49,551 bases of DNA from a virus. The DNA lies in IMG/VR virus record IMGVR_UViG_3300044692_000144, positions 1 to 49,551 of that record, one strand, 5' to 3'. The number at the start of each line of letters is the position of its first letter. The stretch's first letter is position 1. Below, piece after piece: positions 15,675 through 46,953 of this stretch. A model generated the notes under the pieces. It was not told the DNA's origin, ran no database searches, and saw only the letters and a list, made by a program, of their open reading frames with translations. The translations under genes were made by a program, and so were the position numbers.

Positions 15675-15690
15675 CGCCAGCGACTATCTG
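15675..15690 (-). promoter_or_regulatory. Start-associated site S1 (endolysin)
   Basis: CAGATAGTCGCTGGCG ends directly at the ATG at 15674. No Shine-Dalgarno. Slight variant of the element. Confidence 0.6.
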
Positions 15691-15701
15691 ACCGGGGCTC
15701 C

Positions 15702-15950
15702 CTAGTGGAGGAAGGAGGCGATGGTGGCGATCGCCATCAGGGCGAATGAGACCGTGGCGGTGACGAGCAGCCACTGGCCCCTGCCGACACTCGTCTTCAC
15801 CTGCTCGACGCTTTCGTCGATTTTCTCCAGCGTGTCGAGGAGGCCGCCCTTGCCGTTCACGCCGAACACCGCCCATTCGAGTCGGTTGATGCGGGTCTGG
15901 ATCGTCGGTTCATCCTGGTCACCTTTGTACCCCTGAGGCTCATCTGCCAT
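15702..15950 (-). CDS. XhlA-like small membrane protein
   Basis: 82 residues with a charged amphipathic middle (INRLEWAVFG, DTLEKIDESVEQVK) and one C-terminal span (LLVTATVSFALMAIATIASFL). This is the form of XhlA-type phage proteins involved in lysis. First gene of the lysis group, starting right after site S2. Confidence 0.65.
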   Translation of the reverse strand: MADEPQGYKGDQDEPTIQTRINRLEWAVFGVNGKGGLLDTLEKIDESVEQVKTSVGRGQWLLVTATVSFALMAIATIASFLH

Positions 15951-15965
15951 GCCGCGACTATCCGG
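15951..15965 (-). promoter_or_regulatory. Start-associated site S2 (XhlA-like)
   Basis: CCGGATAGTCGCGGC is followed at once by ATG at 15950. Confidence 0.65.
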
Positions 15966-15970
15966 TGGCC

Positions 15971-17608
15971 TCAACGGGTGATCGCCGCCGCCGAGGGAGG
16001 CAGTTCGGCGTTCTGGGCGAGGCGCGCCTGCAGGGCGGCGATCGCGTCCGCGCTCTGGTCGACCTCGACGCTCGCGACCGGGTTGGCCTTGCTCGAGGCG
16101 TCGACCGAGACTCGCTTGATCGGGAAGGTGGTGCGCCGGTTCGGCGTCTGGTCGAGCGCGAAGACCGAGGAGGCGGGGAGGATGCCCTGCACCTGGAAGG
16201 CCGAGCCGTCGGCCCGCATGTAGTGCGCCGGGAGCGGCCCGCGGTCGACGTGGAGGACCGGCCGCGAGATCGCCGCCGAGCCGCGCGCCGGGGCGAAGCT
16301 CCCCGAGAGCGCCAGGAAGGCGATACCGAAGGCTTCGGCCCCGGCCCTCGTCTCCTTGCCGATGTCGATCGCTTCGGTGCGATGCATGCCGTTCAGGTCC
16401 GGGACTTCGGCGGTGACGGTGACCGTGCGGGGAATGCCGGAGTTGTCGGTGTAGGTGACTTCGATCTTGTCGAAGAGCGTCGCCGTCTCGGAGGTCAGGT
16501 CGCAGCTGTCGCACTCCTCGCGGCGGACGATCCAGGTGGCTTCGTCGTCGATCGCGCGGTAGTCGAAGTAGCCGTCGAGGGTGTTGTCGAGCGGCGAGTC
16601 GGGACCCCAGGTCCCGAAGGTGCGGCGGTCGACCTCGAACCGGTTCATGTCGATGATGGCATCCTCGAGCTTCGTGGGCGTCGAGTAGACCGACTGCCTC
16701 ACGAGGAAGGCGGTTTCGTCAATGCGGCGGATAGTTATCCCGTCGGCGCGCGAGGCGGCGTCCTCGACCAGCTGGCCGACCGTGAAGCCGACTTCGAGGC
16801 CTTCCCCCTGGAGTGGGAGTCCGTGGCGGCCGATGACCACGAGTTGCCAATCGGCGCGCCATTCGCCGTCGCCGACGAACGCCGCGTTGTAGTAGAGCTG
16901 GACCGATGCGTAGATCGTGCCGGCGTTCATCACCAATTCGCCCTGCCCCAGGATCCCGGCGCGGTTGGCGCCTATGGATATGCCCCCTGCGATGCGATCC
17001 GCGGCGCCGAAGACCAAGGCAGTCCACGGGTTGCCGGAGGCCACGTTGATGAACTTCGTGTTCGCGAAGAGGACCTGAGCGATTTCGATCCCGCTCGCGT
17101 CATACCAGCTTTCGATAACCCCCTTCTGGCTTTCGGTGTTAGCGAGTCGCGTATAGATGTGGGAGAGCACCGACGCGCCATCATCGCCGGGACGAACTTC
17201 AGCGTTCCCCATGTCGGTGACCCAGATCGTCCCAAGCGCTTCGATCCGCTCGTTGGGAATCGATCCCCACTTCGAGAGGTCGGGGTCGACGTAGATCTCG
17301 CGCAGCGTTGAGTCCTTGAGCCTCGCGCCGAGTCCGTAGGCCGTGACGCCGATCGTCTCCGTGCTATCGCCGCCACGGTCGGCCTCCTCCACGCGGCCGC
17401 GCCAGAGGACGTCGACGCCGTCGAGGACCTGGAGCAGGTTGCCGCGTTCGATCTCGGGGCTGTCGGCGAACCAGCTGCGCTTCAGGATGAACGAGCAGCT
17501 CTCGTCGCCGCCGGGGTTGATCGAGGACCAGGTCAGGCCTTCGATCTGGTCGGTGAGGTCGTAGCCGATGCCCGCCCCCTGCTCGGTGGTGGCGACGACG
17601 CGGATCAT
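15971..17608 (-). CDS. Minor tail / tail-tip protein
   Basis: 545 residues, ATG within ATGA of the distal tail gene. It is beta-rich with aromatic and acidic blocks, as in siphophage tail-tip (Tal/gp-like) proteins: SFILKRSWFADSP near the start, ITIRRIDETAFLVRQ in the middle and an acidic Ala-rich C terminus. Its place between the distal tail and lysis genes supports the call. No enzyme motif is seen. Confidence 0.75.
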   Translation of the reverse strand: MIRVVATTEQGAGIGYDLTDQIEGLTWSSINPGGDESCSFILKRSWFADSPEIERGNLLQVLDGVDVLWRGRVEEADRGGDSTETIGVTAYGLGARLKDSTLREIYVDPDLSKWGSIPNERIEALGTIWVTDMGNAEVRPGDDGASVLSHIYTRLANTESQKGVIESWYDASGIEIAQVLFANTKFINVASGNPWTALVFGAADRIAGGISIGANRAGILGQGELVMNAGTIYASVQLYYNAAFVGDGEWRADWQLVVIGRHGLPLQGEGLEVGFTVGQLVEDAASRADGITIRRIDETAFLVRQSVYSTPTKLEDAIIDMNRFEVDRRTFGTWGPDSPLDNTLDGYFDYRAIDDEATWIVRREECDSCDLTSETATLFDKIEVTYTDNSGIPRTVTVTAEVPDLNGMHRTEAIDIGKETRAGAEAFGIAFLALSGSFAPARGSAAISRPVLHVDRGPLPAHYMRADGSAFQVQGILPASSVFALDQTPNRRTTFPIKRVSVDASSKANPVASVEVDQSADAIAALQARLAQNAELPPSAAAITR

Positions 17609-19611: not shown

Positions 19612-19627
19612 CGCCGCGACTATCCGG
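19612..19627 (-). promoter_or_regulatory. Start-associated site S3 (distal tail)
   Basis: CCGGATAGTCGCGGCG is followed at once by ATG at 19611. A second GGATAG lies about 15 bp upstream. Confidence 0.65.
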
Positions 19628-19629
19628 TC

Positions 19630-22600
19630 CTATCCGCGGCCGGGCGCGGTGTGGCGGCGGCGGGCGTCGCGGCCGAGCGTCGTGTTCACCTTGGCGAGCT
19701 TGCCGTCGACCCGCGCGTCGACCAGCTCGACCAGCTCACCGGAGCGATCGCGGAAGGTCAGGTTGACCTCGTGGTGCGCGGGGCCCGCCGCGCCGGCGGC
19801 CGCGAACTGCGAGTTGGCCGGGCCCTTCGGGTCGGGGACGACCATCTCGTCGCGGTGCAGCATCGCTATCCCGGTGCGGCCGACGCGGAGGCCGCCGGTG
19901 CCGGTCATGAAGGCGCCGAGGTAGGGGACGCCAGGCCCCAGTTCGGAGAAGAACTGGCGGAAGGTCGCGAGCTCGCCCTGGCCGAGCAGGTAGTTCTGCT
20001 GGCGTTCGAGGGAGATCGCTTCCTTCGCCGCGGTCCAGGCGCTGATGTCGGGTTCGACTTCTTCGGGTTCTTCTTCTTCGAGTTCGTTCAGCTGGGCGCC
20101 TTCGGCGATCCGCGCCATCTGTTCGGTGATCTTCAGGCCGAGGCCCTGGATCGCTTCCTGCGTGTCCCAGATAGCACCTCCGAAGCTCCCCGCCTGCGGC
20201 ACCGTCGGGAGCGCTTTCAGGCGTTCATGGAGGGCCGGCCAGTAGTCGCCTTGGACTTCGGCCAGGTCGTCCTCGAAGGTCCCGGTCCCGGCGCGCGGCG
20301 GTGCGGGGTCCTTCACCCCGGCGCCGCCCGGGTAGAAGGCTTCGCGGGCGGTCGTCAGGCTGCCCGAGACGCCCCGGTCTTCGTAGCGGAGCATCGGCAG
20401 CTTGGAGAGCTGTTCGTGGATGTACTTCGCCGGGTGGGCGGCCCCGCCGGGGTCGAGGAACAGCGTGTGTTCGGCGAGCATCTGCCGCAGTGCCTTGAGC
20501 GCGCCGTCATGGTCTTCCCACCACTCTTCGGTGTGGGGTGGAGGCAGTTCTCCGATGACGTCGATGTGCTTGCGGATCTTCGTCAGCCGGTCTTCGAAGT
20601 TGCCCTCCATCCCGCCGATCGCGCCGCTCGCCCAGTCGCCGGCGACGAGCGACTCGCCTTTGAGCACGAGGTTGCGCCAGTCGGCCTCGGCGCCGAGGAC
20701 GTTGGCGTAGGCGCCGCCCTCCTGGATTTCGATGTAGCCGATCAGCCCGCGCTCGAAGGTTCGTTCTTCGTCGCGGCGGCGCAGGTTGTACGCGTTTTCG
20801 GCTTCGGTGTTGCGCCGTTCCCAGGCCTTGAGCACCTTTTCGCGCTCTTCCCGCTTCATGCCCTTCGTCGACGGGCGCGGCTCCGGGACGAAGGGTGCGG
20901 CTTCTGCTTCGACCGGCTCCAAGTCGACGACGTGGCCGGCGTATTCGTTCAGGTGCGCATAGCGTTCCTGCGCGCCTTCGATCATCGCCTCGGCGCCGGT
21001 GATCTTCGCCAGCTGGCGGGCGAGCTTGCGGGTCACCTTCTTCTTCGCGATTTCGCGCCGTTCCTTGGCCCGTTCGCGTTCGAGCTGGTGGATCTGCCCT
21101 TCGATCGCGGTGATGTTGTGGCGGAGGGCCTGCGCGATCGCCGGGCGGTCTTCCTTGCGCGCGGCCGCCGCGGCGGATTTGTAGCGCGGCAGTTCGGCCC
21201 GCCATTTGTGCAGTTCGCGTTCGATGCCTTTCAGCGATTTCGGCGAGCCGAAGTTGATGCTTTCCTTGCACTTGCAGCCCCGATATTCGGCGGGCACTTC
21301 TTCTTTGTAGGTGTGTTCCTTTTCTTCCTTCGCGTCCTCTTCTTTGCCGCTGGTCGAGACTTCGATGTCGGCGTTCCCCGACCAGCCGAGTGCGTCGGCG
21401 ATCCGCTGGTGGAGGTCGACCTTGTAGTGCGGGTCGCCCGCCTGCCCGGAGCCGACGTCGTTCTTGTACATCACGAGGTTCTTCTTCGAGCCCGGCATCC
21501 GCACGTGGATCGGGGTCCCCATCGCCATCCCGTAGTCCTGGCCTTCGGCGATGTAATGCGGCGGCCCGATGCCGAGCGTCGCCGTCAGCGACTGCGACTT
21601 CAGGTTGCGGTTCGCGCCCGCCTGCAGGAGCTCGGCGAAGCTCATCCCGCCGTGGTTGGAGTAGTTGGGGTTGCCGTACTCGGGGTCGATCGTCGCGCCG
21701 ACCTTCACCCAGCCGCCCTTGTCGAAGCCCCAGCCGACGAAGTGCGGGGACCTCGGGTCGAAGGCCTCGCGGCCGTATTTGGCGATCGCCTTCCGCGCGC
21801 CGGCCGGCGCGGCCTTTTCGATCTTCGGGTCGACGAAGCCGCCGCCCTTCGGGTCGACGAAGCCGCCCTTCGCGTAGCCCGGCATGTGGCGGAACTGGAA
21901 GGCGCCGTCCCAGCCCGAGTCTTCGTGCGCGCCGCCGCCGGAGCCACCCGACTCGAAGAAGCCCCAGGTGCCGTTCGGTTTGCGGACCGAGATCATGGTG
22001 TGGGCGTTCATGCCGCTCGTGCCGCGCACGCCCCAGGTGAAGAACTTGCCCGGCCCGGGCACGCCGAGGGTGTAGAGCCCCGAGCCCTGCTGCACCGACA
22101 TCGGCGTGTCGATGAAGCCGCCGGCGTGGAGGATGAAGCTGACGAGGCCCGAACAGTCGACGGGCTGGATCCCGAAGCTGCCGTGGCCGCCGCCGTAGAC
22201 GTAGGGGAAACCCATCGAGGTGATGGCTTCGCCCGCTTTCAGCATCGCCAGCACGCGCTGGGGCTCCATGTGCGCGCGGAGGTATTTCTGCGCGCCGGCG
22301 AAGCCGAGGTTGAGCGCGTCCTGCGCGAGCGTGCGGGTCGGTTCGGGGCCTTTCAGGAACGGATGCGGGAGCGTCCCGGTCGTGCCCGTGCTCCCGTCGG
22401 CGAAGCCGCCCTTGGCGAAGTAGTTGGGCTTGCGCGGACCGGAGAAGAGTTCCCCGAGCGAGCCGTTGCGGGTGATGCCGAGGGCCTTGCCGACCGCGAG
22501 GCCGGCCTGCACTTCAGGCTGGTCGTGGACGGTGAGGATCGCCTCGCGGCCGCCGAGCACCGCGGGCACGTGGTCGCGGCGATCACTGCCGGGCACGAAG

Positions 22601-25600
22601 CCCCCGTGTGCGAACCCCTTCTCAGTCGCTTCGCGGGCGTGGTGGTACTGCGAGGCGATCGACAGCTGCGTAGCCGTGAACTTCGGGATTTTCGACGAGC
22701 CGACCGCGGCCAGCGCGTTGGCGAGGTTGTCGAAGATGTTCGTCAGCCCGCCGCTGACGTTGGTCGCGCCTTCGCCCACCGACGTCGCGATGTTCGACAT
22801 CGCCGAGGCCGTGGACTGTTCGACCTGTTTGTTCGTCGCCCCGAATTTCGCCGCGATCGCCGAGGTCAGCTTCTGGGTCGAGCCTTTGACCAGCTGGCCC
22901 TTCGCTTCCAGCGAGTGGGCCATGCTCACCATCGCGTCGACGGCGGTTTCGCGGGCGTCCTTCGGCATCTTGCCGAGGTCGGTCTTCACCTTCGCGATCT
23001 GCTGCTTGTTGACGTCGCCGGCCTTCTTCCAGCTCGAGGCGAAGCCTTCGGCGATGCCGAGCGGGTCGGAGCCTTCGACCAGCTTGATTTCGCGAAGGAT
23101 CTGTTGGATCTCCTTCTTGCCCTTACCGGCCTTGATCACACTCGCGTCCATCCCGGCCTGGATGGCGTCGATCATCGACTGCATGTTCTTGGCGGTCGCT
23201 TCTCGCCAGCCGGTCGAGCCCTGGCTCCAGGAGGAGGCGATGAGCTTCGTGTTCTGGTCGAAGACCTTGCGGATGTCGGCCATCCGGGTGACGACACCCG
23301 AACGCAGGTTGTCGATGCCGGCTTCGAACTGCCGGAAGGTCTTCGGGTCGGTCTGCAAAGTGACTGGCGGCGCTTCGATGTGGAAGCGATCGGCGACGTG
23401 CTGGGCCTCGATCAGCGAGCTGCGCACGGTGCGGGCCAACAGCTTTTCTTCGGGCTTCATCTGGTCCCATAGGCCGCCGAAGAGCTCCTTCACCGACGGG
23501 TAGCGCGCCTTCACCTGCGAGCCGAGCCGGCTCATTTCCTCCTCGAAGAGGCGCGTCCACTTCTCCCCGCCGACCGGTTCGAATTCGGGGAGTTTCGTCG
23601 TGGCGTTCGCCTTCGCCACCTTTTCGATGTTGCCGGTCGGGACCTGTTTGGTCAGGGTGCCGCCGATCAGCAGCGTGTGGAGGGTCCGGCTGAAGCCCTT
23701 CTGGAATTCTTCGCCGGTCGTTTCGCCGAGGTCGATGCCGAACGAGTGGACGAGGCCGACGCCGAAATCGTGGAAGGCACCCGAGAGCCCGGTCTGGCGA
23801 TCGCCGTTTTCGATCGCGGCCTGCATGCCCCCGATCAGGCCGTTGACCGCGAGCACGACGCCCACGCCTTTGGCGACGCTGGTGAGCGTCGAGAGGCCCG
23901 ACTTGAACTTCGTCGCCATGGTCGTCCCGCCGACCTCGCGCCCGACGGCATCCGCAGCGCTCTGACCGAGGGCGGTCCCGGCCTTCGCGCCGACCGTCTT
24001 GGCGGCGACCACGGTGCCGGAGGAGTTCGCGATCAGCAGCTGCCGGCTCGAGGCGGCCTCGGCGGCGCCGGCCCTGACCGCGCTCGCCGCGCCGGTGGCG
24101 CCGACCCCGGCCTCCATGCTGGTGGCCATGCCCGTCGCGACCTCCGCGCCCGCCCGGGCGCCCGCCGCCTTCAGGGCCGCGAAGCCGCCGAGCTTCGTGA
24201 AGAGCCATGCTCCGATCACCAGTCGGCCGAGCGCGTCGCTTTCGAAGAAGCCCTTGACGAGCGCTTCGGCCGCACCCAGACCGGCCTTCCCGGCAGCATC
24301 GGCGATCTTCGGGAGCGCCCAGTTGAAGGCCTTGACGAGCCCTTCGCGGATGTCGTCGCCGATCCCGCTCGTCGACCAGACTTCGCCGACCGCGTCGGCC
24401 AGAATTTCGGCCTTCTTGCCGAGGTCGCCGTTCTTGAATTCCGGCGTAGCCATCGCCTTCGACAGCGCTTCCTGGAGGGCGTCCCCCTCCTGGTTGACGA
24501 AGTCGGTGGCGTCTTTCAGCGCGCCTTTCAGCTGCGGCGCGAACTTTTCGAAGACCTCGATCTCCATCGTTTCGAAGGAGCCTTTGAGTTCTTCGAACGC
24601 ACCTTTGACGGTGTCGTTCATCGTTTCCGCGGCTTTTTTGCTGGCGCCGTCGGAGTGTTCGAATTCCTCGGTGAGTTTGTGCAGCTTGCCCGGCCCGGCG
24701 TCGACCACTTTGAGCATCCCCGACAGCGCTTCGTTGCCGAAGATCGAGGCCAGAGCGAAGTTCTGCTGGGACTTGCTCAGCCCCTGCATCCCGCCCTGGA
24801 GCTTCCCCACAAGCTCGGGCAATGGGAGAAGTCCGTTAGGCCCCTGCAGATCGGATGCGTCGAGGCCGAGGGCCTTCAGCCCCTCGGTCACCTGTTTGGT
24901 CGGCTTGACGAGTTTCAGGAGGCCCGCGCGCAGCGTCGTGCCCGCCTGCTCACCCTTGATCCCGGCGTCGCCCATCAGCGACACGGCGGCGATCATCGAC
25001 TCGAAGCTCTCGCCGGTCGCGCTGGCGACGGGGCCGATGTACTTCAGCGAGAGTTGCAGGTCCTGCATCTCGACGCTCGAGCTGTTGACCGACTGCGCGA
25101 GGACGTCGGCGACGTGCGTCGATTCCGAGGATGCGAGGTTGAACCCTCGCAGTGCGTTCGAGTTGATTTCGGCGGCTTCGGCCAGGCCGACGCTGGAGGC
25201 GGCGGCGAGCGCGAGGACGCCGGGCAGCGCGGCCTGGGTTTCCTTCACGTCGAAGCCCGCGGAGGCGAGCTCGTACATCGCTTCGGCCGCCTCGCCGGCG
25301 GAGAACTTCGTGTCGGCGCCGAGCTTGATCGCGAGCCGGCGCAGTTCCCCCATCTCGGCGCCGGTCGCGCCGGTCACCGCCTGGACGCGCGCCATCTGCG
25401 ATTCGAAGGCGGCGCCGGTCTTCACCATCGAGGCGACGGCGAGCGCCGCGCCGCCGGCGACGCCGACCGAAGCGATCTTCGCCACGGACATCAGCCCGTG
25501 GAGCGATTCTTTCTGCTTGTCGACGGCGGCGCTGAAGCCGGCGGCGGCCGGGGTCTCCCGGCGAACCGTCTCGCCGAAGATCTTGACCGTGCCGCTCGCG

Positions 25601-25665
25601 CTGCCGAGCTCCCGCCGAAGCGGGCCCGCGTCGGCGTCGACGATGACCTTCAGGTCATCGGCCAC
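19630..25665 (-). CDS. Tape measure protein with NlpC/P60 and RlpA-like domains
   Basis: 2,011 residues. The first 400 match the TP901-type tail tape measure core (PhageMin_Tail: GAAFESQMARVQAVTGA, MYELASAGFDVKET). A hydrophobic helix region lies near 450-620. Around residues 1150-1240 is an NlpC/P60 peptidase (catalytic Cys in DCSGLV near 1167, His in NAHTMI near 1221). Around 1350-1420 (GMAMGTPIHVRM...NDVGSGQ...KVDLHQRIADALGW) is an RlpA-like double-psi barrel. Charged coiled coil follows. The size suggests a long tail. GTG at 25665 is chosen for its Shine-Dalgarno; TTG at 25671 is the alternative. Confidence 0.9.
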   Translation of the reverse strand: MADDLKVIVDADAGPLRRELGSASGTVKIFGETVRRETPAAAGFSAAVDKQKESLHGLMSVAKIASVGVAGGAALAVASMVKTGAAFESQMARVQAVTGATGAEMGELRRLAIKLGADTKFSAGEAAEAMYELASAGFDVKETQAALPGVLALAAASSVGLAEAAEINSNALRGFNLASSESTHVADVLAQSVNSSSVEMQDLQLSLKYIGPVASATGESFESMIAAVSLMGDAGIKGEQAGTTLRAGLLKLVKPTKQVTEGLKALGLDASDLQGPNGLLPLPELVGKLQGGMQGLSKSQQNFALASIFGNEALSGMLKVVDAGPGKLHKLTEEFEHSDGASKKAAETMNDTVKGAFEELKGSFETMEIEVFEKFAPQLKGALKDATDFVNQEGDALQEALSKAMATPEFKNGDLGKKAEILADAVGEVWSTSGIGDDIREGLVKAFNWALPKIADAAGKAGLGAAEALVKGFFESDALGRLVIGAWLFTKLGGFAALKAAGARAGAEVATGMATSMEAGVGATGAASAVRAGAAEAASSRQLLIANSSGTVVAAKTVGAKAGTALGQSAADAVGREVGGTTMATKFKSGLSTLTSVAKGVGVVLAVNGLIGGMQAAIENGDRQTGLSGAFHDFGVGLVHSFGIDLGETTGEEFQKGFSRTLHTLLIGGTLTKQVPTGNIEKVAKANATTKLPEFEPVGGEKWTRLFEEEMSRLGSQVKARYPSVKELFGGLWDQMKPEEKLLARTVRSSLIEAQHVADRFHIEAPPVTLQTDPKTFRQFEAGIDNLRSGVVTRMADIRKVFDQNTKLIASSWSQGSTGWREATAKNMQSMIDAIQAGMDASVIKAGKGKKEIQQILREIKLVEGSDPLGIAEGFASSWKKAGDVNKQQIAKVKTDLGKMPKDARETAVDAMVSMAHSLEAKGQLVKGSTQKLTSAIAAKFGATNKQVEQSTASAMSNIATSVGEGATNVSGGLTNIFDNLANALAAVGSSKIPKFTATQLSIASQYHHAREATEKGFAHGGFVPGSDRRDHVPAVLGGREAILTVHDQPEVQAGLAVGKALGITRNGSLGELFSGPRKPNYFAKGGFADGSTGTTGTLPHPFLKGPEPTRTLAQDALNLGFAGAQKYLRAHMEPQRVLAMLKAGEAITSMGFPYVYGGGHGSFGIQPVDCSGLVSFILHAGGFIDTPMSVQQGSGLYTLGVPGPGKFFTWGVRGTSGMNAHTMISVRKPNGTWGFFESGGSGGGAHEDSGWDGAFQFRHMPGYAKGGFVDPKGGGFVDPKIEKAAPAGARKAIAKYGREAFDPRSPHFVGWGFDKGGWVKVGATIDPEYGNPNYSNHGGMSFAELLQAGANRNLKSQSLTATLGIGPPHYIAEGQDYGMAMGTPIHVRMPGSKKNLVMYKNDVGSGQAGDPHYKVDLHQRIADALGWSGNADIEVSTSGKEEDAKEEKEHTYKEEVPAEYRGCKCKESINFGSPKSLKGIERELHKWRAELPRYKSAAAAARKEDRPAIAQALRHNITAIEGQIHQLERERAKERREIAKKKVTRKLARQLAKITGAEAMIEGAQERYAHLNEYAGHVVDLEPVEAEAAPFVPEPRPSTKGMKREEREKVLKAWERRNTEAENAYNLRRRDEERTFERGLIGYIEIQEGGAYANVLGAEADWRNLVLKGESLVAGDWASGAIGGMEGNFEDRLTKIRKHIDVIGELPPPHTEEWWEDHDGALKALRQMLAEHTLFLDPGGAAHPAKYIHEQLSKLPMLRYEDRGVSGSLTTAREAFYPGGAGVKDPAPPRAGTGTFEDDLAEVQGDYWPALHERLKALPTVPQAGSFGGAIWDTQEAIQGLGLKITEQMARIAEGAQLNELEEEEPEEVEPDISAWTAAKEAISLERQQNYLLGQGELATFRQFFSELGPGVPYLGAFMTGTGGLRVGRTGIAMLHRDEMVVPDPKGPANSQFAAAGAAGPAHHEVNLTFRDRSGELVELVDARVDGKLAKVNTTLGRDARRRHTAPGRG

Positions 25666-25667
25666 CG

Positions 25668-25952
25668 TCAACGCCTCCCGCGGATTTCGTCCTGCTTACG
25701 TCGCTGTTCGGCCCACCAGTGGTCGTTCTCGGCGCCCGCCCAGGAGTCGGGGTCGGTGGTGCCCTGTCCGGCCCGGGCCTTTCGGGCACGGGTGAGCTCG
25801 CGGAGCCACGCTCGCAGCCGTCGCCAGCCCATCCGTTCCCAGAAGTCGGGCTCCCATCCATAGAACTCGCAGAGCGCCCCTACGACTTCGAAGAAGCTGA
25901 TCTCTTCGACCGCTTCGGTTTCGTACTCGGCGTCCCAGCCGCCTTGGGAGGG
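25668..25952 (-). CDS. Tail assembly chaperone, frameshifted C-terminal part
   Basis: This frame has no start of its own and lies -1 relative to the preceding gene. It encodes an acidic Trp-rich stretch (EAVEEISFFEVVGALCEFYGW) and a helical tail, like the T part of lambda G/T chaperones. It would be made by a programmed frameshift from the gene at 25880-26281. It ends just before the tape measure gene, the usual place. Confidence 0.75.
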   Translation of the reverse strand, partial: PSQGGWDAEYETEAVEEISFFEVVGALCEFYGWEPDFWERMGWRRLRAWLRELTRARKARAGQGTTDPDSWAGAENDHWWAEQRRKQDEIRGRR

Positions 25953-26281
25953 CGGGCGTCATCACCGCCATCCGCATCGGCCGCGCCGCTGTAGAGGTGG
26001 ACGATCAGCGCGCCGAGACGCTTCGGGCCGATCGGGAGGCTCTCCAGGTCCGGCTGGTGGACCTGGAAGATCTCGAGGACCTTCTCGTAGAGGGCCTGCA
26101 ACTTCTCGCCGCCGGTGCCCTCGGCCTCGGGATCTTCGAGGTCGTTCACGAGGCGTTCGAGCTCGATGAAGTCCGGGATCGGGATGTCACCCGGAAGCTG
26201 GTAGACGGGCCCTTCGTGCTCGAGGCGGACGGGAAAGGTCTCCGGTACGGCCTCGCTCAGGTCCGTGATCTGCTGCGGCAT
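25880..26281 (-). CDS. Tail assembly chaperone, first part (G-like)
   Basis: 133 residues, ATG with GGAGG 8 nt upstream, preferred over GTG 9 nt earlier. Acidic and helical (SEAVPETFPVRLEHEGPVY, DFIELERLVNDLEDPEAEG), with a Lys/Ser tail. It lies between the tail tube and tape measure genes. A CCCTCCCAAGG stretch (25952-25942) is where -1 slipping would join it to the T-like frame. No classic X-XXY-YYZ heptamer is present, so the exact site is uncertain. Confidence 0.8.
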   Translation of the reverse strand: MPQQITDLSEAVPETFPVRLEHEGPVYQLPGDIPIPDFIELERLVNDLEDPEAEGTGGEKLQALYEKVLEIFQVHQPDLESLPIGPKRLGALIVHLYSGAADADGGDDARPPKAAGTPSTKPKRSKRSASSKS

Positions 26282-26357
26282 GGTTGCCACCTCCGTGATT
26301 CGCGTCCTGCGTGGGAGGTGGTGCCGCGACGTCGACGCAGTTCGAACGCCCGCCCTC

Positions 26358-26376
26358 GGCCGCGACTATCCGACGC
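26358..26376 (-). promoter_or_regulatory. Start-associated site S4 (chaperones)
   Basis: GTCGGATAGTCGCGGCC lies about 76 nt before the ATG at 26281, which here has its own Shine-Dalgarno. This is the one copy not touching a start codon, which fits a promoter better than a translation signal. Confidence 0.6.
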
Positions 26377-36245: not shown

Positions 36246-36463
36246 GTCGCCCAGAGCTCCTCGACCGGCGAGCCGAGTACCGCGGCGATGCGCCCCTGTA
36301 CCGCCGGCGGCGGAACGAGGCCGTGCTCGATCATCGACAGGTAGCTGGTCGAGATCTCCGCCGCCGCGGCGACGTCGACCAGGCGGTGGTCCTTTGCGCG
36401 GGCGAGGCGAGCGGCCTTCACGGGGTGGTCGGCGGCCTGATTGCGAAGTTCAGAACTTCCCAT
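36242..36463 (-). CDS. XRE-type helix-turn-helix protein
   Basis: 73 residues. The HTH is VDVAAAAEISTSYLSMIEHGLVPP with trailing IAAVLGSPVEEL. It starts right after site S9, so it is a head-region regulator placed at a fresh start. Confidence 0.7.
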   Translation of the reverse strand: MGSSELRNQAADHPVKAARLARAKDHRLVDVAAAAEISTSYLSMIEHGLVPPPAVQGRIAAVLGSPVEELWAT

Positions 36464-36480
36464 CGCCCGCGACTATCGGA
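36464..36480 (-). promoter_or_regulatory. Start-associated site S9
   Basis: TCCGATAGTCGCGGGCG is followed at once by ATG at 36463. TTTCTGAAACGCG lies directly upstream, near 36481-36493. Confidence 0.65.
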
Positions 36481-36759: not shown

Positions 36760-37179
36760 TCAGGAGGCTGCGAGAGCGGCGTCGGCGTCGGTGAGCGTCT
36801 TCACCAGGTCCGCCTTGACGACGTCGCCGTCCTTGCCGGTTCCGGTGACCTCGAGCGCGGCCTTGCGGGCCTCGATCACCTGCTCGAGCTGCTCGACCTT
36901 GAGCTTGTCATAGTCGAAGGGCGCGGGCGGGGTGTAGTCGTCGCGCGCCTCCAGCTCGGCGACCAGGTCCTCGGTGGAGACGTCGCCGATCGACGGCGCG
37001 GTCGCGGCGGGATCCGCGCCGGCCGGCGCGGCCGCGGGCGACTCGGTCGTCGAGACGCGCTTTTCCTCGAGCAGCTGCTGTTCGGCCGCGGAGTCGAGCG
37101 CGATCACGTCGCCACGGACATAGGAGCGTCCGGCGTAGACGAGGCCGTCGTCGATCACGTAGAGGGTCTTGCGGCTCAT
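36760..37179 (-). CDS. Head-associated protein, unknown
   Basis: 139 residues. The first 40 are beta-rich (KTLYVIDDGLVYAGRSYVRGDVIAL). A Pro/Ala middle and a SAP-like end (VKADLVKTLTDADAALAA) follow. Directly after the major capsid gene with TGA/ATG overlap. Confidence 0.55.
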   Translation of the reverse strand: MSRKTLYVIDDGLVYAGRSYVRGDVIALDSAAEQQLLEEKRVSTTESPAAAPAGADPAATAPSIGDVSTEDLVAELEARDDYTPPAPFDYDKLKVEQLEQVIEARKAALEVTGTGKDGDVVKADLVKTLTDADAALAAS

Positions 37180-38204
37180 GCGAGCACGTCTTCCAGGACG
37201 TAGGCGACGTCGGGAGCGGTGACTTTCTCCTGCTTCTTCTCCCAGGCGCGGACGTAGTCGACCGGCGGATCGGCGGTCGCCCACTTGTCGATGACGAAGG
37301 CGCCGCCGCCTTCCGACGTCGAGCGGGCGGTGCGGCTCTCGCTGGTCGCCGCGACCTGGCCCTCGAGGCTGTAGATGGTCGACGGTTCGTCGAGATCGTC
37401 GCCGCCGCGCTTGATGAAGCGCACGGTGTCGTCCCAGACCGATTTGAGCGCCAGCGGCGAGCCTTTGCGGGCCGTGTTGTACATCGTCCCGTCGGCGATG
37501 ACGACGTTCAGGCCGAAGAGGTTCTTGGGCAGGATCGCCTCGCCGCGCGAGATGATCATGTTGCCGTCGACGGTGTACTTGATGATTTCGCGGATCGCCG
37601 GGTCGAGGGAGATCGCGTAGGCGACGTCCCAGTCGATGACCATCGTGTCGACGTGCTGCCCGGTCGCGTCGTGGACGGCTTTCCGGGCGGCTTTCACGTC
37701 GAGCTCGATCGTGGCTTCTTTTTCGCCCCACTTGTGGACCACGCCGCCGCCGAGGGTCAGCTGGCCGCCCGCGGTGGTCTTGCGCAGGGCGGCCGCCAGG
37801 CGGCGCTCGCGGCGCAGGGTCATGCGGCGGATCAGGCCTTTGACTTTCGTTTCTTCGAAGCGCAGCTCGTCGGCGGCCTGCGAGCGCTCTTCCGGCGTGA
37901 TCGAGACCTTGAGGCGGTAGTTCCGCAGCAGGTAGTCCCGCATTTCGACACCGAAGTCGATCTCGGGCGTCTCGGCGCGATCGTCGACCTCGGACTCGAC
38001 GTCGTCGCGGAGCAGGTCCTCGAGCTTCCAGACCGGGTACTGGCCCGAGTTCTTGGCGATGCCGCCGGGCAGTTTGGCGACGATCTGGTCGTAGACGAAG
38101 CCCTGCGGGAAGTAGCGGATCCCGAGGTTGGTCAGGATCGGGTCGATTACCTGCAGCCCGTTGGGGTCGCGAGGCTGGATATCGGCTGCACCGAAGCGCG
38201 TCAT
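37176..38204 (-). CDS. Major capsid protein
   Basis: 342 residues in the style of phage E-like major capsid proteins (VWKLEDLLRDDVESEVDDRAETPEIDFG; VHDATGQHVDTMVIDWDVAYAISLDP; NVVIADGTMYNTARKGS). It lies after the scaffold and cement genes in canonical order, and its start overlaps the cement stop. Confidence 0.85.
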   Translation of the reverse strand: MTRFGAADIQPRDPNGLQVIDPILTNLGIRYFPQGFVYDQIVAKLPGGIAKNSGQYPVWKLEDLLRDDVESEVDDRAETPEIDFGVEMRDYLLRNYRLKVSITPEERSQAADELRFEETKVKGLIRRMTLRRERRLAAALRKTTAGGQLTLGGGVVHKWGEKEATIELDVKAARKAVHDATGQHVDTMVIDWDVAYAISLDPAIREIIKYTVDGNMIISRGEAILPKNLFGLNVVIADGTMYNTARKGSPLALKSVWDDTVRFIKRGGDDLDEPSTIYSLEGQVAATSESRTARSTSEGGGAFVIDKWATADPPVDYVRAWEKKQEKVTAPDVAYVLEDVLA

Positions 38205-39216: not shown

Positions 39217-39235
39217 GCAGCCGCGACTATCGGAC
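39217..39235 (-). promoter_or_regulatory. Start-associated site S10 (scaffold)
   Basis: GTCCGATAGTCGCGGCTGC is followed at once by ATG at 39216. The opposite-strand gene starts 23 bp away. Confidence 0.6.
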
Positions 39236-39584: not shown

Positions 39585-42491
39585 TCAGCGCAGACCGCGG
39601 GTGGCAAGGAACCGGTCGAAGGCCTCGGCGATCGGCTGGAAGTCGGCGTCGGACCAGTAGATGTTCGGCTCGGCTTCCAGCCGGGCGACGATCTTCGCCT
39701 TCAGCACTTCGTTGCCGGAGCGCAGCGCGATGTACTGCTCGTAGCTGCGGGCGAGCAGCTCGCGGATTTCCCGCTGGTAGTCGGAGCCTTCGGCTACGAG
39801 GCCGCGGTAGGCGGCGCTGTTGGTGACCGCTTCGCGCCACTCGATCATCGCCGGCGTCGACGAGAAGAGGTCGCGGCCGCCGCTGTTGGCGATCGCCGCC
39901 ACCGGCGTCCCGTCGCCGAAGCCATGCCCGTCGAGCGAGTGGCCGACCTCATGGACCGCGGAGGTGAGCGGCGGCTTGCGCCGTAGCGCCTGCGCCGAGA
40001 GGGCGATTTCCTCGTCGTGCCAGTTGCCTTCGAGGTCGATCGAGCCATTCCAGTAGCCGAGCCGTTTGCCTTTCCCGCTGTCCAGGGTCGGCTTGATCTT
40101 GATCGGCACGCGCCCGACCGACTTCGGGATCCGGTGGACCTGGTCGATCGCCGCCAGCTGGTCGGCGACCAGCGCCTTCATCTGCGCCGTGCCGCCTTCG
40201 ACGTCGAAGTGGTCGGCCGCCAGGCCGCCCGGGCCTTCAGGCGGTGACAGCGGCGGCTCGGGCGGAGGCGTGCCGCCGCCGTAGCCCGGCGCCTCGTCCT
40301 TCAGCTCGAAGAATTCCATGCACCTGCAGCGCCCGCCGCCCTGGCAGTCGGGGTTCGGCGGGATGTGGGAGAGCCGCACCGGGTCGTCGAGGCGGCGCAG
40401 GACGTCGTCGTCGTCGGCCGCGCAGGCGTCGCAGCGGCGGCTGTCGAGGATCGAGGTGTAGCGCGCGCCCTCGATCTCGTCCTTGGAGATCTCGGCCTGG
40501 TCGTTGCGGCCTTCGTTCAGCGCGCCGGCGGCGTGCAGCTGCGCCTCGCCGCGCAGCGCCGCGGCCGCCTCGGCTTCGCCCGCCTTCTGGGCCCGGGCGC
40601 GATCGCCGGGCTTCCCGATCACGGCGTGGCTGACCTTCTGCCAGATACGCGAGGCGATCGACTGCGCCGAGAGCTTGGCCCGTTCGCGCAGTCGTCTCGC
40701 CGCCTGCGATTCGACGTCGGCCGCCGCGACCGCGGCGTCGCCGGCGCCGGGGCGCTGGGCGTTCAGCTCGTCGACCACGGTCGAGCGGCCGGTGCGGTAG
40801 AGCCGCGCCATCTCGTTGTAGAGGGCGGAGGCCAGCTGGTCGTCGGCCTTCGGCGTCAGCGTCTTCCCCGCGAGCGCCGCGTCGGCCATCTCGGAGGCGA
40901 GTCGGCGGGCGTGCTCTCCGCCGGCGGATTCGAAGCGGCCGCGGGCGGAGTCGATCGCCGTCTCGATCTCGTCGAGCGACATCAGCTCCTCCCACCAGCG
41001 CATCTGGCGGCGTTCGCCTGCGTCCTCGGCTTTCGGTTTCGGTTCTGCCGGTTTGCCCGGCGCCGGCGCCGGCCGGGGCCGCGGATCGGCGGCAGCAGGC
41101 GCGGGCGGCGCCGGGTCTCCCGGCCGCGGCGCGGGGGCGGGTGGCGCTTCGGCCGCCTTCTTCTGCAGTTCGCGCGCCTCTTCGGCCTGCTTCTTCCGTT
41201 CCTCGCGCTCCTCGGCGTCGGCCGGTGGCAGGTCGCCCCGCTGGCGGAGGAAGTCCTCCAGCTCGTCGTCGGGGTGGATCACTTCTTTTTCCACCAGTTT
41301 CGCGACGAATTCGCTGAGTTCGGCCAGCGACGTCGAGTCGACGGTCGACATCTTGACCTTCGGCGGTCGGTCGCCGTCGAAGTTCAGTTCGGCGAAGCGC
41401 TTGGCCAGGGGCTTGAGGGGTGATTCGACTTCGCCGGCGAGGGCCTCCGCGCTGGCGAGGAAGGGGTTTTCCTGCGAGTCGGCGGTTGCCCGGGCGCCGC
41501 TCGCGGCCTGACCCTGGCCGAGGCGCATGAAGTCCTCGATGAAGGCGCCGCTGATTTTGTCGCCCTGCATTTCGATCGACGGGCGGACGTCGACCGTCGC
41601 TTCGCCGGAGCCGATGCCGAGGATTTCGAAGCGCCAGCCCTGGCCCTCGAGCGTTTTGCGCAGGTCCTGCGCGTGCGGGCCCGGGGCGATGATGAACCCC
41701 TGCTCCGCGGCGCGGATCCCGCCGAGGATCCGTTCGACCTCGTCGATCTGCTCGACCGTCGCGTCCTTCGGCGGGTAGGCGATCGGGATCCCCATCGCGA
41801 GGCGCTCGTTCTTGATCACGTCGATCCGTTCGAGCTTGTCCTTCAGGAACCACGGCTTGTAGGCGGCGCGCAGCATCGAGCCGCCCTCCCAGTTGTCGCC
41901 CTCGGCGCCGATCCGGTAGTAGACGAGGTCCTCGAGCGGCAGATCGACGTAGCCCTGCGTCGGCAGGAACTGCACCAGCGTCTGCAGCTGGTTCATGTCG
42001 TCGGACTCGAAGCGCTGGATCGTCCGTGGCAACCGCAGTTCGAGCGAGCGCGGCGCGATCAGCGGTTTCCCTTCGAACTCGGTCGCCTCCCATACTCCCT
42101 CGAAGGGGGCGAAGCCGGAGCGCACCAGCACAGGCAGCGCTTCGGCCAGGTGGCCGCCGAAGTCCGGCGACATGAACTCGAAGAGCGCCCACTTGAAGGC
42201 CTCGGCCGCCTTCACGTCGTTCTCTTCGGCTTCCTCACCACCGAAGGGCTCGACCGACCACGTGCCGCCGGCGACCAGATTGACCACCATCCGCACCGCC
42301 CGCCGCACGTCCGGGTCGGTCCGGTACATCCGGTCGAAGATCCGCAGCCCGTAGGGGAAGCGGAGTTCGAAGTTCTCCTCTTCGAGTTCGAGGAAGCCGC
42401 CGTAGTGGTTGCGCCCGGAGCCGCCCCGCGGCTTGGTCGGAGGCGGCGCGGCGTCGGCGGCGCGGAGGCGGAGGCGATCGAGGAAGCCCAT
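39585..42491 (-). CDS. Portal-MuF-zincin fusion protein
   Basis: 968 residues. The first 450 match a Mu gp29-like portal (DUF935). Then a Pro/Ala-rich linker, a MuF head-morphogenesis domain at about 500-730 (Cys near 687, CDACAADDDD, and a CRC motif) and a C-terminal domain with HEVGH at 847-851, the HExxH zinc protease signature. Normally portal and MuF are separate genes. The fusion suggests the minor head protein and a metallopeptidase are delivered on the portal. It starts right after site S11. Confidence 0.85.
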   Translation of the reverse strand: MGFLDRLRLRAADAAPPPTKPRGGSGRNHYGGFLELEEENFELRFPYGLRIFDRMYRTDPDVRRAVRMVVNLVAGGTWSVEPFGGEEAEENDVKAAEAFKWALFEFMSPDFGGHLAEALPVLVRSGFAPFEGVWEATEFEGKPLIAPRSLELRLPRTIQRFESDDMNQLQTLVQFLPTQGYVDLPLEDLVYYRIGAEGDNWEGGSMLRAAYKPWFLKDKLERIDVIKNERLAMGIPIAYPPKDATVEQIDEVERILGGIRAAEQGFIIAPGPHAQDLRKTLEGQGWRFEILGIGSGEATVDVRPSIEMQGDKISGAFIEDFMRLGQGQAASGARATADSQENPFLASAEALAGEVESPLKPLAKRFAELNFDGDRPPKVKMSTVDSTSLAELSEFVAKLVEKEVIHPDDELEDFLRQRGDLPPADAEEREERKKQAEEARELQKKAAEAPPAPAPRPGDPAPPAPAAADPRPRPAPAPGKPAEPKPKAEDAGERRQMRWWEELMSLDEIETAIDSARGRFESAGGEHARRLASEMADAALAGKTLTPKADDQLASALYNEMARLYRTGRSTVVDELNAQRPGAGDAAVAAADVESQAARRLRERAKLSAQSIASRIWQKVSHAVIGKPGDRARAQKAGEAEAAAALRGEAQLHAAGALNEGRNDQAEISKDEIEGARYTSILDSRRCDACAADDDDVLRRLDDPVRLSHIPPNPDCQGGGRCRCMEFFELKDEAPGYGGGTPPPEPPLSPPEGPGGLAADHFDVEGGTAQMKALVADQLAAIDQVHRIPKSVGRVPIKIKPTLDSGKGKRLGYWNGSIDLEGNWHDEEIALSAQALRRKPPLTSAVHEVGHSLDGHGFGDGTPVAAIANSGGRDLFSSTPAMIEWREAVTNSAAYRGLVAEGSDYQREIRELLARSYEQYIALRSGNEVLKAKIVARLEAEPNIYWSDADFQPIAEAFDRFLATRGLR

Positions 42492-42508
42492 CGCCCGCGA
42501 CTATCGGG
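42492..42508 (-). promoter_or_regulatory. Start-associated site S11 (portal)
   Basis: CCCGATAGTCGCGGGCG is followed at once by ATG at 42491. TTCTGAAA lies about 11 bp upstream, near 42519-42526. Confidence 0.65.
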
Positions 42509-43492: not shown

Positions 43493-45016
43493 CTAAAGCT
43501 GCTTCGTCCCCAGCCCGCCGCTGATCGTCTGGCCCCGATCGCGCTGCGCCTGCCGCTGCTGGGCGGGTGGGATGTCGGGCAGCGCCCGGGCGGCGTAGGA
43601 GAGCGTGTCCACCTGGTCGTCGTGCTCGCCGGCGGGGAAGGCGAGCAGCTCGGCCTCGTAGTCGTGCAGCCACTCGGCGCCGCGGCGGTGGTAGACCTTG
43701 CCGCCCTTGTAGAGCGCGGCCGCGACGCCGGCGCGGGTGACCTTGTCTTTGTCGGGGAAGACCGGCTCGGCCGGGAAGCCGCGGCGCAGCAGCGCCCGCA
43801 CCATCCCCGACTGGTAGCCGATCGACTCGATCTTGGCGACGGCGCCGGTGTGATGGTCGAGGAAGAAGTCGGGCTGGTCGGTGACCGGGATGTGGTCGCG
43901 GGTGACGCTGTTCAGCAGCAGGTCCTTGTCCGGGGTCACCCACCACTCGCTGAGCACGGTGTAGTCGCCCTGCTCTTTCTCCGACGCCGCCAGGTCGGCG
44001 GTCTGGAATTTCGCGATCCAGTCGAGGCCGTAGCTTTGCTTGGCGCCGCCGGGCCGCGTGAGGACGACCAGGCCGTTCTCGACCTCCCAGTAGTGGAAGT
44101 ACTTGCGGCCGAAGATGCCGCCCTCGTCGGGCGTGGGCTTGCCCTGGTACATCGCGCTGAACCAATACGGGCCGAGGACCTTGCGCGTGTGGAGCAGCCA
44201 TTCGGCCGAGTAGCGCTGCGGCCAGAGCGCTTCCCCGACCGGGCGGCCGAGCGGGTCGTCCTCCTCGGCGATCGCGGGCAGGCGGATCTCCGTGACGGGG
44301 TCGCCGCCTTCCTCGCTCGAGGCGAGCATCCGGCCGGCGATGTCGTCCTCGTGCCAGCGGGTCAGGAGCACGATGACCACGGCGCCGGGCTGCAGCCGCG
44401 TGCGCGCCGTCGAGAGCCACCAATCCCACTGCTTCTCCCGGATCACCTCCGACATCGCCTGCTCGGCGTTCTTGATCGGGTCGTCGATGATCAACAGGTC
44501 GGCGCCCATGCCGGTGATGGGGCCGCCGACGCCGGCGGTGATCATCCCGCCGCGATGGCCGCGCAGGCCCCAGCGCTTCGCCGAGGACGACCGCGGGTTG
44601 AGCTCGACGCCATAGAGGTCGCGGCCGTGCTCTTCGAGGATCGTCCGCGCCTTCAGGCCCCAGCTCGAGGCGAAGTCGCTCTCGTAGCTGCAGAGGATGA
44701 CGTGGCGGTCGGGGAAGGTGCCGACGAACCAGGCGGGGGTGTATTCGCTGATCTCGGTGGACTTGCCGTGGCGCGGGGGGACCTCGATCAGCAGGATCTC
44801 CGGGCGATCGTCGACCGGCTCCCCGGCGGCGGCGCGGCGCTGCCGTTCGTGGGCCCGCGCGACCGCGGCGACAATTTCGCGGTCGATCAGCCGGATGTGG
44901 TCCGGGTAGGCGTAGCGCTTCGCCGCGCCCTGATCGACCAGGCGTTCGTCGACCGCCAGCGCCAGGCCCGCGGGGCTAGCCCTCGCGAGCGTCGGCAACG
45001 GCAGCGACGAGACCAT
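43493..45016 (-). CDS. terL: Terminase large subunit
   Basis: 507 residues. Walker A is PPRHGKST at 80-87, Walker B LLIIDDP at 174-180. The C-terminal RNase H-like nuclease has GLDWIAKF and HDDQVDTLSYA near 475. It cuts and pumps DNA into the head. The start overlaps the small subunit gene by 41 nt. Confidence 0.95.
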   Translation of the reverse strand: MVSSLPLPTLARASPAGLALAVDERLVDQGAAKRYAYPDHIRLIDREIVAAVARAHERQRRAAAGEPVDDRPEILLIEVPPRHGKSTEISEYTPAWFVGTFPDRHVILCSYESDFASSWGLKARTILEEHGRDLYGVELNPRSSSAKRWGLRGHRGGMITAGVGGPITGMGADLLIIDDPIKNAEQAMSEVIREKQWDWWLSTARTRLQPGAVVIVLLTRWHEDDIAGRMLASSEEGGDPVTEIRLPAIAEEDDPLGRPVGEALWPQRYSAEWLLHTRKVLGPYWFSAMYQGKPTPDEGGIFGRKYFHYWEVENGLVVLTRPGGAKQSYGLDWIAKFQTADLAASEKEQGDYTVLSEWWVTPDKDLLLNSVTRDHIPVTDQPDFFLDHHTGAVAKIESIGYQSGMVRALLRRGFPAEPVFPDKDKVTRAGVAAALYKGGKVYHRRGAEWLHDYEAELLAFPAGEHDDQVDTLSYAARALPDIPPAQQRQAQRDRGQTISGGLGTKQL

Positions 45017-45494: not shown

Positions 45495-45511
45495 CGCCCG
45501 CGACTATCCGG
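45495..45511 (-). promoter_or_regulatory. Start-associated site S12 (terminase small)
   Basis: CCGGATAGTCGCGGGCG is followed at once by ATG at 45494. TTCTGAAA lies just upstream, near 45518-45525. Confidence 0.65.
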
Positions 45512-45611: not shown

Positions 45612-45830
45612 CTACGCCAGATCGTGCCCGACGCGCCGCAGCCGCTCGATCGCCGCCCGCACCTCGGCACCGCCGGCGCCCAGGCGCTCCGCGATCTCGC
45701 CGCGATTCATCCCCGCAGCCGCGAGCACGCCGACCCGCGCCGTGAACTCGACCTCGCGCCGCGCGTCCTCCTCGAGAGCGGCGACCAGGTCACGCAGGAA
45801 TTGGCTGCGCGGCTTGCTGCGAGACTGGCC
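45612..45830 (-). pseudogene. Sigma region-4-like fragment, shifted frame
   Basis: The 3' part of the sigma-like gene in a frame shifted by +1 from the region-2 part. RSQFLRDLVAALEEDARR leads to a helix-turn-helix (GMNRGEIAERLGAGGAEVRAAIERLRR). It has no good start codon of its own. It would be expressed only by frameshifting, or the gene is broken. Confidence 0.5.
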
Positions 45831-46233
45831 GGATGTGTGCCTCGGCGTTGAGCCGTCGCCCCTCGAGGCCGCTGTGCTCGTCGATCGTCTCGAGGTAACT
45901 GTCGAGCGAGATCGGCGTGTCGAGATAGACCCAGCGCCGCTTCCCATCGGGACCGGCGACTCGGACGTGGCTGGGGTTCCGTGAGTGCCACGCGTCGCCG
46001 AGTCGGCGGGGGAGGAACTGCGCCGCGAATCCGCTGAAACGCCCTGGCTGGGAATAGCCGGGGCGGTGCGGCTCGAACTGCTCGGCGAGCCGGTAGAGGA
46101 TGAGGATCCCGTCACCGACGAGCTCTTCCTTCTCGTGTGCCGCGACTGCTCCAAGGCCTGCCTTCTCGATCGTGGCGCACACGAAGCCTTCGACGTCGTC
46201 GATGTCGTGCAGCCGGACCGTGGTCGGGAGCAA
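45790..46233 (-). CDS. Sigma-70-like region-2 protein (phage sigma candidate)
   Basis: 147 residues from a TTG start (weak). EELVGDGILILYRLAEQF...RFSGFAAQFLPRRLGDAW follows the sigma region 2 pattern that binds core RNA polymerase and the -10 element. The sequence RWVYLDTPISLDSYLE is like the segment after region 2. The region 4 part lies in the next frame. It sits between the recombinase and the terminase, at the start of the late block. Confidence 0.5.
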   Translation of the reverse strand: MLPTTVRLHDIDDVEGFVCATIEKAGLGAVAAHEKEELVGDGILILYRLAEQFEPHRPGYSQPGRFSGFAAQFLPRRLGDAWHSRNPSHVRVAGPDGKRRWVYLDTPISLDSYLETIDEHSGLEGRRLNAEAHIRPVSQQAAQPIPA

Positions 46234-46241
46234 CGATAGGC

Positions 46242-46301
46242 CTACTGGAATTCGGCGCCGCGGCGGACGAGCTGGGCGGCGGGGAGGTTGCAGAGGTCCA
46301 T
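46242..46301 (-). CDS. 19-residue ORF after site S13
   Basis: M-D-L-C-N-L-P-A-A-Q-L..., ATG directly after site S13. The frame differs from the sigma region-2 frame by one base. It may be a leader peptide, or the first codons of the sigma gene before a frameshift. Confidence 0.3.
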   Translation of the reverse strand: MDLCNLPAAQLVRRGAEFQ

Positions 46302-46320
46302 CTCCCGCGAGTATCGGACG
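46302..46320 (-). promoter_or_regulatory. Start-associated site S13 (variant)
   Basis: GTCCGATACTCGCGGGAG, with GATACT in place of GATAGT, precedes the ATG of the 19-residue frame. TTTCAGAAG lies just upstream. Confidence 0.5.
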
Positions 46321-46358
46321 CGACTTCTGAAAGGGGGTACCGAGAATTAGGGCAACCG

Positions 46359-46937
46359 TCAGCCGCGGGAACGGATCTTGCGCGCCAGGTCGGCCTCGAA
46401 GATGTGGGTGTAGATCACCGTCGTGCGGATGTCGGAGTGGCGGAGCAGCTGTTGGACCTCGCGGACGTTGAAGCCTTCGCGCAGCAGCTCGGTCGCATAG
46501 GTGTGGCGGAGCATGTGCGGGTTGACATCGCGGTCGATTCCGGCGCGGCGGGCGTAGCGGCGCATCATCGCCCAGACGTATTTCCGCGACACCGGGCCGC
46601 CGGCGAGCGTGGTGAAGAGGTGCGGTTTGCGACCGATGCCGAGGCCTCGGCGCACCGCGATCCACGCGCGCAGCAGCTCGACCGCCTGGTCGTCGAGATA
46701 GGCGTAGGCCTCCTTGCCGCCCTTCGCCACCTCGGGCCGAAGGTGGACCTGGCCGTCGTCGAGGTGGGCGTCGCGCAGACCGACGCCGCAGGCCTCGCTG
46801 ACACGCAGACCCGAGCGGTGCATCAGGGTCAGGATTGCGAGGTTCCGAAGGCCGGTCGGCGCCGAGCGATTCGGCACCGCGAAGAGCGCCGCGATCTCGT
46901 CAGCGGAGAGGATCTTCGGCAGTTTGCGCGGCGCCAT
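46359..46937 (-). CDS. Compact tyrosine recombinase
   Basis: 192 residues, only the catalytic domain: R45 (SGLRVSE), K72, H141 and R144 (HMLRH), H167 and Y176 (TTVIYTH). No N-terminal core-binding domain. It is the second recombinase in this prophage. It starts after site S14 and lies next to a lox-like inverted repeat. It may act as an invertase, resolvase or a second integration factor. Confidence 0.85.
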   Translation of the reverse strand: MAPRKLPKILSADEIAALFAVPNRSAPTGLRNLAILTLMHRSGLRVSEACGVGLRDAHLDDGQVHLRPEVAKGGKEAYAYLDDQAVELLRAWIAVRRGLGIGRKPHLFTTLAGGPVSRKYVWAMMRRYARRAGIDRDVNPHMLRHTYATELLREGFNVREVQQLLRHSDIRTTVIYTHIFEADLARKIRSRG

Positions 46938-46953
46938 ATAGGCGACTATCGGC
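46938..46953 (-). promoter_or_regulatory. Start-associated site S14 (recombinase)
   Basis: GCCGATAGTCGCCTAT is followed at once by ATG at 46937. Confidence 0.6.

Follow-up and report, generated by a model that had tools for sequence, protein, structure and literature searches.

The window analysed here is a stretch of 49,551 nucleotides of viral DNA (IMG/VR record IMGVR_UViG_3300044692_000144), which comes from a virus of uncultured soil bacteria (Solirubrobacterales). Its late region carries the 8-nt element GATAGTCG again and again, on one strand and next to start codons. We propose, with a probability of roughly two in three, that these elements are leaderless late promoters read by a split sigma factor of the phage, similar to gp55/gp33 of T4.

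GATAGTCG occurs in 13 exact copies on the minus strand of the window (span 15681 to 46950) and is absent from the plus strand; GATACTCG at 46308 is one additional start-linked site on the minus strand, giving the 14 sites counted in an earlier note on this DNA. An ATG lies 4-7 nt downstream at 13 of the 14 (12 of the 13 GATAGTCG copies and the GATACTCG site; the exception is 26363) and no copy lies below 15.6 kb, in agreement with that note. A second GATACTCG, at 39492, is not associated with a start. The unit is shorter than the 16-mer originally described: six variable bases follow the 8-mer, only 5 sites match the 14-mer GATAGTCGCGGGCG exactly, and only the 8-mer, GATAGTC[G/A] without a Shine-Dalgarno (SD) sequence, is invariant.

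Dinucleotide shuffles of the minus strand contained GATAGTCG 0.28 times on average and at most twice (13 observed), and copies with an ATG 4-7 nt downstream had a shuffle mean of 0.01 and a maximum of 1 (12 observed). Together with the recurrence in relatives, these values refute chance or a composition artefact, to which we assign a negligible probability.

DNA pattern scans of IMG/VR identified six related contigs (G001, G002, G013, G017, G026 and G040), while the large terminase subunit (TerL), as lone query against viral contigs, gave no match. TerL is about 76% identical to that of the window in G001 and G002, and 39-46% identical in the other four. The earlier note had proposed a motif search in related phages, absence of the motif speaking against its reading; each relative carries 9-19 copies of GATAGTCG, on the late strand. 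Window and relatives together hold 96 exact sites, with an ATG 4-9 nt downstream at 78 and exactly 6 nt downstream at 50. One-mismatch forms at the correct distance from an ATG are rare (approximately 10). This mismatch count is the unbiased measure, because a logo built from exact matches has its 8 central positions fixed by selection. Upstream, only a few adjacent bases are preferred (G, C/T and C at -4 to -2 of the element), and the 78 start-linked sites contain no -35 information, which rules out an ECF-type -35/-10 promoter. Single GATAGTC..ATG matches in contigs among the 45 tested were taken as likely chance.

Other actinophages have asymmetric repeats confined to a single strand, among them the stoperators of cluster A (PMC3203893), and GATAGTCG might similarly be an operator, a stoperator or a packaging/replication repeat merely located at gene starts. 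This is very unlikely, given the fixed spacing to the ATG, the lack of a palindrome in the 8-mer, its absence from the early region and its recurrence at the starts of orthologous genes in distant relatives.

A minority of sites do have a palindrome, GTTTCWGAAAC, shortly before the element. Its core, TTCWGAA, includes the TTCTGAA box of the earlier note, which had not seen the palindrome; the box is present at part of the sites only. The same note had argued that the box is not a standard -35, correctly, since its distance varies and many sites lack it. Across nine contigs, 27 GATANTC sites have TTCWGAA in the 30 nt that precede them. TTTCTGAAA boxes stand on either side of the start of one late gene in the window, and the start of the homologous gene is flanked likewise in G001 and G002:

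36242-36463, minus strand: Xre-family helix-turn-helix (HTH) regulator, 73 aa (HTH_3, E 1.9e-5), candidate binder of the TTTCWGAAA box

Homologues of this gene are present in 7 of 7 phages. The palindrome is probably the operator of this late Xre regulator, with GTTTCTGAAAC as the candidate target sequence of the 73-aa protein.

Promoter or translation signal

Candidate starts in 704 kb of host DNA showed enrichment of TANNNT 6 and 7 nt upstream (37 and 29, against a background of 4), and Solirubrobacterales hosts appear to use leaderless promoters, with TAG favoured at the start of the hexamer. To our knowledge, no transcript maps exist for Solirubrobacterales. The phage sequence TAGTCG shares this register, the position of a leaderless -10 element, with G replacing the host T at -7. 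The earlier note had proposed GATAGT as the -10 element of a leaderless mRNA. The general proposal is supported by the lack of a -35 and of an SD sequence, by the host register and by the leadered exceptions described below. The hexamer, however, is more likely TAGTCG preceded by a fixed GA, because GATAGT ends 8 nt from the ATG, outside the host peak of 6-7 nt; GATAGT is possible and less favoured.

A constant distance to the ATG and the absence of SD sequences at these starts (no 5-mer SD within 20 nt of the ATG at any of the 78 sites) would also suit a signal for translation initiation. The late genes would then share a long polycistronic mRNA, in which 16S rRNA, or else a phage or host RNA-binding factor, recognises the element. 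Such a role has been proposed for the start-associated sequences (SAS) of cluster K mycobacteriophages (PMC3203893, PMC11373665). However, host 16S rRNA has no stretch complementary to the element, which rules out 16S pairing, and the register is that of the host leaderless -10. Moreover, conserved copies lie 38-98 nt upstream of SD-bearing starts, where they would be useless for translation. In the window, G001 and G002, one gene has GATAGTCG without an adjacent ATG and starts 81, 92 and 98 nt downstream, each time with a GGAGGTGG of its own that can base-pair with CCACCTCC further upstream (a hairpin is predicted in the window). This position, 81-98 nt upstream of an ATG having its own GGAGGTGG, argues that GATAGTCG is a promoter and not a ribosome signal. 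The gene at ATG 29693 has GATAGTCG-N6-ATG in the window, while in its orthologue in G001/G002 (a modest orthology, E ~1e-6 at best) the element lies 38 nt ahead of the ATG, and an SD-like GGAG precedes that start. As leadered sites bear their own SD, the element stays where transcription should start and the SD appears when a leader appears. We therefore regard a translational role as improbable.

The 81-nt leader of the window (26281-26370), in which CCACCTCC opposes the GGAGGTGG ribosome site, is conserved in G001 and G002 and may be a translational switch of a tail gene.

Under the promoter reading, GATAGTCG alone would be the entire recognition element of the late promoters. From this -10-only promoter, we infer, RNA polymerase would initiate some 7 nt downstream, on the A of the ATG or beside it, so that most late mRNAs would be leaderless and would be translated by the ordinary leaderless route of the host.

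The sigma-like gene pair

The likely reader of these promoters, which the earlier note had missed, is a gene pair conserved in 8 contigs, which directly precedes the terminase genes and whose two frames overlap or adjoin each other. In the window it comprises:

45790-46233, minus strand: sigma region 2-like protein, 147 aa, TTG start (alignment, fold match to sigma domain 2); likely promoter-recognition subunit
45612-45836, minus strand: small HTH (sigma region 4-like) protein, approximately 75 aa, overlapping frame, tentative start (alignment, model, fold search)

An open reading frame (ORF) at 45612-46154 had been listed first and was rejected, its first half being in the wrong frame. The split pair was recognised because the conserved DNA there belonged to the sigma-2-like ORF, in another frame.

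The 147-aa protein carries EELxxDGxxxLxxLAxxFEP...GRFSGFAAxFLPRRLGDAW, the pattern of sigma regions 2.1-2.4. Sigma factors made up approximately 40 of its 50 listed Foldseek matches (E 0.07 to 2), phrog_351 ('RNA polymerase sigma factor') matched one of the 8 family members (E 0.0068), Sigma70_r2 matched one member (E 0.078), and a profile of 30 host sigma region 2 sequences aligned in register (hhalign, P 0.0064). These indications are individually weak and mutually agreeing. The HTH protein was modelled with a pLDDT of 90, and its best fold match was 9a4r_A, described as an RPSH-RPOB model, where we take RPSH to be sigma-H. In L184, one of two further contigs (see below), the two genes are more than 500 nt apart, indicating separate proteins. 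In the proposed mechanism, the sigma-2-like protein would read the 8-mer and the small HTH/sigma-4-like protein (ending at 45612) would be its partner, the two conferring specificity as a phage-encoded split sigma.

With the sigma-2-like alignment as the sole query, a search of IMG/VR recovered the relatives already known and added two contigs, L184 and L182. L184 has start-associated GATAGTCG plus TTCTGAAAC boxes. L182 has no GATAGTCG; its late starts have GATAGTCA (4 of 4, none on the other strand). The element and the gene pair are thus associated. Furthermore, a one-mismatch site lies 74-84 nt upstream of the pair in five phages (GATACTCG in the window and G002, GATAATCG in G001, GATAGTCA in G013 and GATAGTCC in L184). 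That the site of the pair is always one base off suggests a weaker, self-regulated promoter; such an off-consensus promoter would give self-feedback, the pair probably being made first from another promoter. In the window, a 19-codon leader ORF (46242-46301) directly follows the variant promoter, with similar short ORFs in G001/G002 (MPCNPFPGQL.., MPRCKSFPGQL..), and may exert leader peptide control over the sigma-like operon.

Alternatively, GATAGTCG could be a leaderless late promoter for a host sigma factor, be it the principal or an alternative one, possibly assisted by a phage activator (Xre, for example), the pair having some other function. Host promoters share the register and prefer a hexamer that begins with TAG, and each host has 23-30 Sigma70_r2 matches. 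We nevertheless consider this unlikely: a near-essential T at -7 is replaced by G, and 8-mer + N6 + ATG occurs 0-4 times per host genome (232 genomes) versus up to 11 times per 50 kb of phage. In addition, the element is near-invariant across phages with terminases about 45% identical, and motif and pair travel together.

Several observations weigh against a phage split sigma. The whole evidence base is sequence, and the sigma assignment is remote (nothing above the Pfam cut-off, Foldseek E of at least 0.07, model pLDDT 67). The HTH partner fits generic HTH proteins as well, which form most of its fold matches. In G000-G002 and L182 the HTH ORF, in the +1 frame relative to the sigma-2-like ORF, has no obvious start codon; it would be expressed either from an unusual start or by +1 frameshifting that fuses both sigma parts. 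G040 has the motif and no sigma-2-like gene in the contig, where the terminase genes lie at the edge and the pair may be cut off. Finally, no one-mismatch site was found ahead of the pair in G017, G026 and L182.

A PDB sequence search with the sigma-2-like profile gave no match, and no relatives were found in 50,697 phage records. The 232 host-order genomes yielded one match only, a decayed remnant at L219 2350-2600.

Sites, genome layout and host

The 14 sites of the window are:

46943-46950, minus strand: GATAGTCG, 5 nt before ATG 46937, short tyrosine recombinase (46359-46937)
46308-46315, minus strand: GATACTCG, putative promoter of the sigma-like operon with one mismatch, 6 nt before the 19-codon leader ORF (46301-46242)
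45501-45508, minus strand: GATAGTCG, 6 nt before ATG 45494, candidate terminase small subunit (small protein directly ahead of TerL)
42498-42505, minus strand: GATAGTCG, 6 nt before ATG 42491, portal
39224-39231, minus strand: GATAGTCG, 7 nt before ATG 39216, 202 aa; two relatives have an internal in-frame start
36470-36477, minus strand: GATAGTCG, 6 nt before ATG 36463, Xre-type HTH regulator
32080-32087, minus strand: GATAGTCG, 6 nt before ATG 32073
29700-29707, minus strand: GATAGTCG, 6 nt before ATG 29693
28307-28314, minus strand: GATAGTCG, 6 nt before ATG 28300, tail region gene
27801-27808, minus strand: GATAGTCG, 6 nt before ATG 27794
26363-26370, minus strand: GATAGTCG, no adjacent ATG, ATG 26281 at 81 nt downstream
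19617-19624, minus strand: GATAGTCG, 5 nt before ATG 19611, 668 aa, next gene after the tape measure
15955-15962, minus strand: GATAGTCG, 4 nt before ATG 15950, 82 aa, before the endolysin
15681-15688, minus strand: GATAGTCG, 6 nt before ATG 15674, endolysin GH25

The short tyrosine recombinase (192 aa from the GATAGTCG start) is the second one in the window, heads the late region and is conserved in four relatives. G001 (14921, 14989) and G002 (9065, 9133) each have a pair of GATAGTCG-ATG starts in one reading frame, separated by 68 nt, a nested gene with long and short forms as read from the sequence; the window has the inner start only. The late structural region also includes two glycosyltransferase-like genes (32097-35537), among the best conserved of the group (34-78% identity).

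Late and structural genes lie on the minus strand, and the early part of the window contains the integrase and genes for Sak4, a helicase and an exonuclease. The main landmarks are:

43493-45016, minus strand: TerL
39585-42491, minus strand: portal
37176-38204, minus strand: major head protein
19630-25671, minus strand: tape measure
14493-15674, minus strand: endolysin, GH25
1092-2486: integrase, early part
631-719: tRNA-Ser(cga), left end, beside the integrase
464-554: tRNA-Ser(gga), left end

This is a temperate, tailed, 50-kb phage of Actinomycetota. Positions 1-730 resemble host chromosome, and the tRNA-Ser(cga) next to the integrase is the likely attachment site. A 22-nt tRNA piece matched ten metagenome-assembled genomes labelled Solirubrobacterales, Thermoleophilia or Actinobacteria/Actinomycetota, and the flank of the window matched one of the ten over 261 bp (94%). 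On these two matches, the window most likely represents a prophage from a Solirubrobacterales host, its junction with the host lying at the left.

Comparison with known systems

The late promoters of phiKZ/AR9 are likewise very short and near the transcription start, but they are read by phage multisubunit RNA polymerases (PMC5312081); neither a multisubunit nor a single-subunit phage RNA polymerase was seen among the scanned proteins of the phage studied here. The sigma factors of phiEco32 and 7-11 (PMC4331800) recognise promoters that are short and well conserved and that also precede their own sigma gene; these sigma factors are not described as a two-protein split and serve in Gram-negative hosts. 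SigO-RsoA of B. subtilis (PMC8103513) has sigma-2 and sigma-4 on separate proteins, but is cellular and uses another promoter.

The earlier note had named the cluster K SAS as a relative. The analogy is fair: SAS are asymmetric, occur in 11-19 copies in a single orientation a few nt from the ATG, contain GATAG, are rare in hosts, and about half have an upstream inverted repeat. Membership does not follow, because SAS contain an AGGAG Shine-Dalgarno and lie with non-structural genes: the SAS/ESAS consensus GGGATAGGAGCCC (PMC3203893, PMC11373665), with its SD core, is not matched by GATAGTC[G/A], which lacks an SD, as the earlier note had remarked, and precedes late/structural genes. SAS are thought to be translational, and ESAS contain SigA-like -35/-10 sequences where the box upstream of our element is a short palindrome. 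If our reading is correct, the cluster K SAS question, unexplained since 2011, gains a testable alternative, namely promoters rather than ribosome signals.

It would also make the late regulon readable from sequence, the 8-mer marking late start codons, support the view that leaderless transcription is common in Solirubrobacterales and provide a compact sigma/promoter pair for GC-rich actinobacteria. Above all, it would add another natural split-sigma phage system beside the unrelated phage T4, from which this late layout is until now best known. In T4, gp55 resembles sigma domain 2, gp33 mimics sigma 4, the promoters have no -35, and the two proteins have been termed a split sigma (PMC2988020). 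The T4 late promoter TATAAATA and the phage element are both short, near-invariant and -10-only, without a conserved -35, and the sigma domain 2-like recognition protein and separate small sigma-4 mimic of T4 would have candidate counterparts here, suggested by weak fold and profile matches. No sequence homology was found: gp55 was not named when the sigma-2-like protein was scanned against Pfam, PHROG and PDB sequences, no direct comparison with gp55/gp33 having been made, and no sliding clamp gene was noted in the parts scanned. Unlike in T4, GATAGTCG is GC-richer and the predicted mRNA start is at the start codon; gp33 does not recognise DNA, and the putative partner here is an HTH protein. 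We lean slightly towards the broader view that, in the late programme of an uncultured group of Solirubrobacterales phages, a two-subunit sigma of their own would read an 8-bp -10-only element directly attached to the start codon, which would set the starts of both transcription and leaderless translation, the T4 design having been reached independently and the cluster K SAS being perhaps a related solution among other actinobacterial phages.
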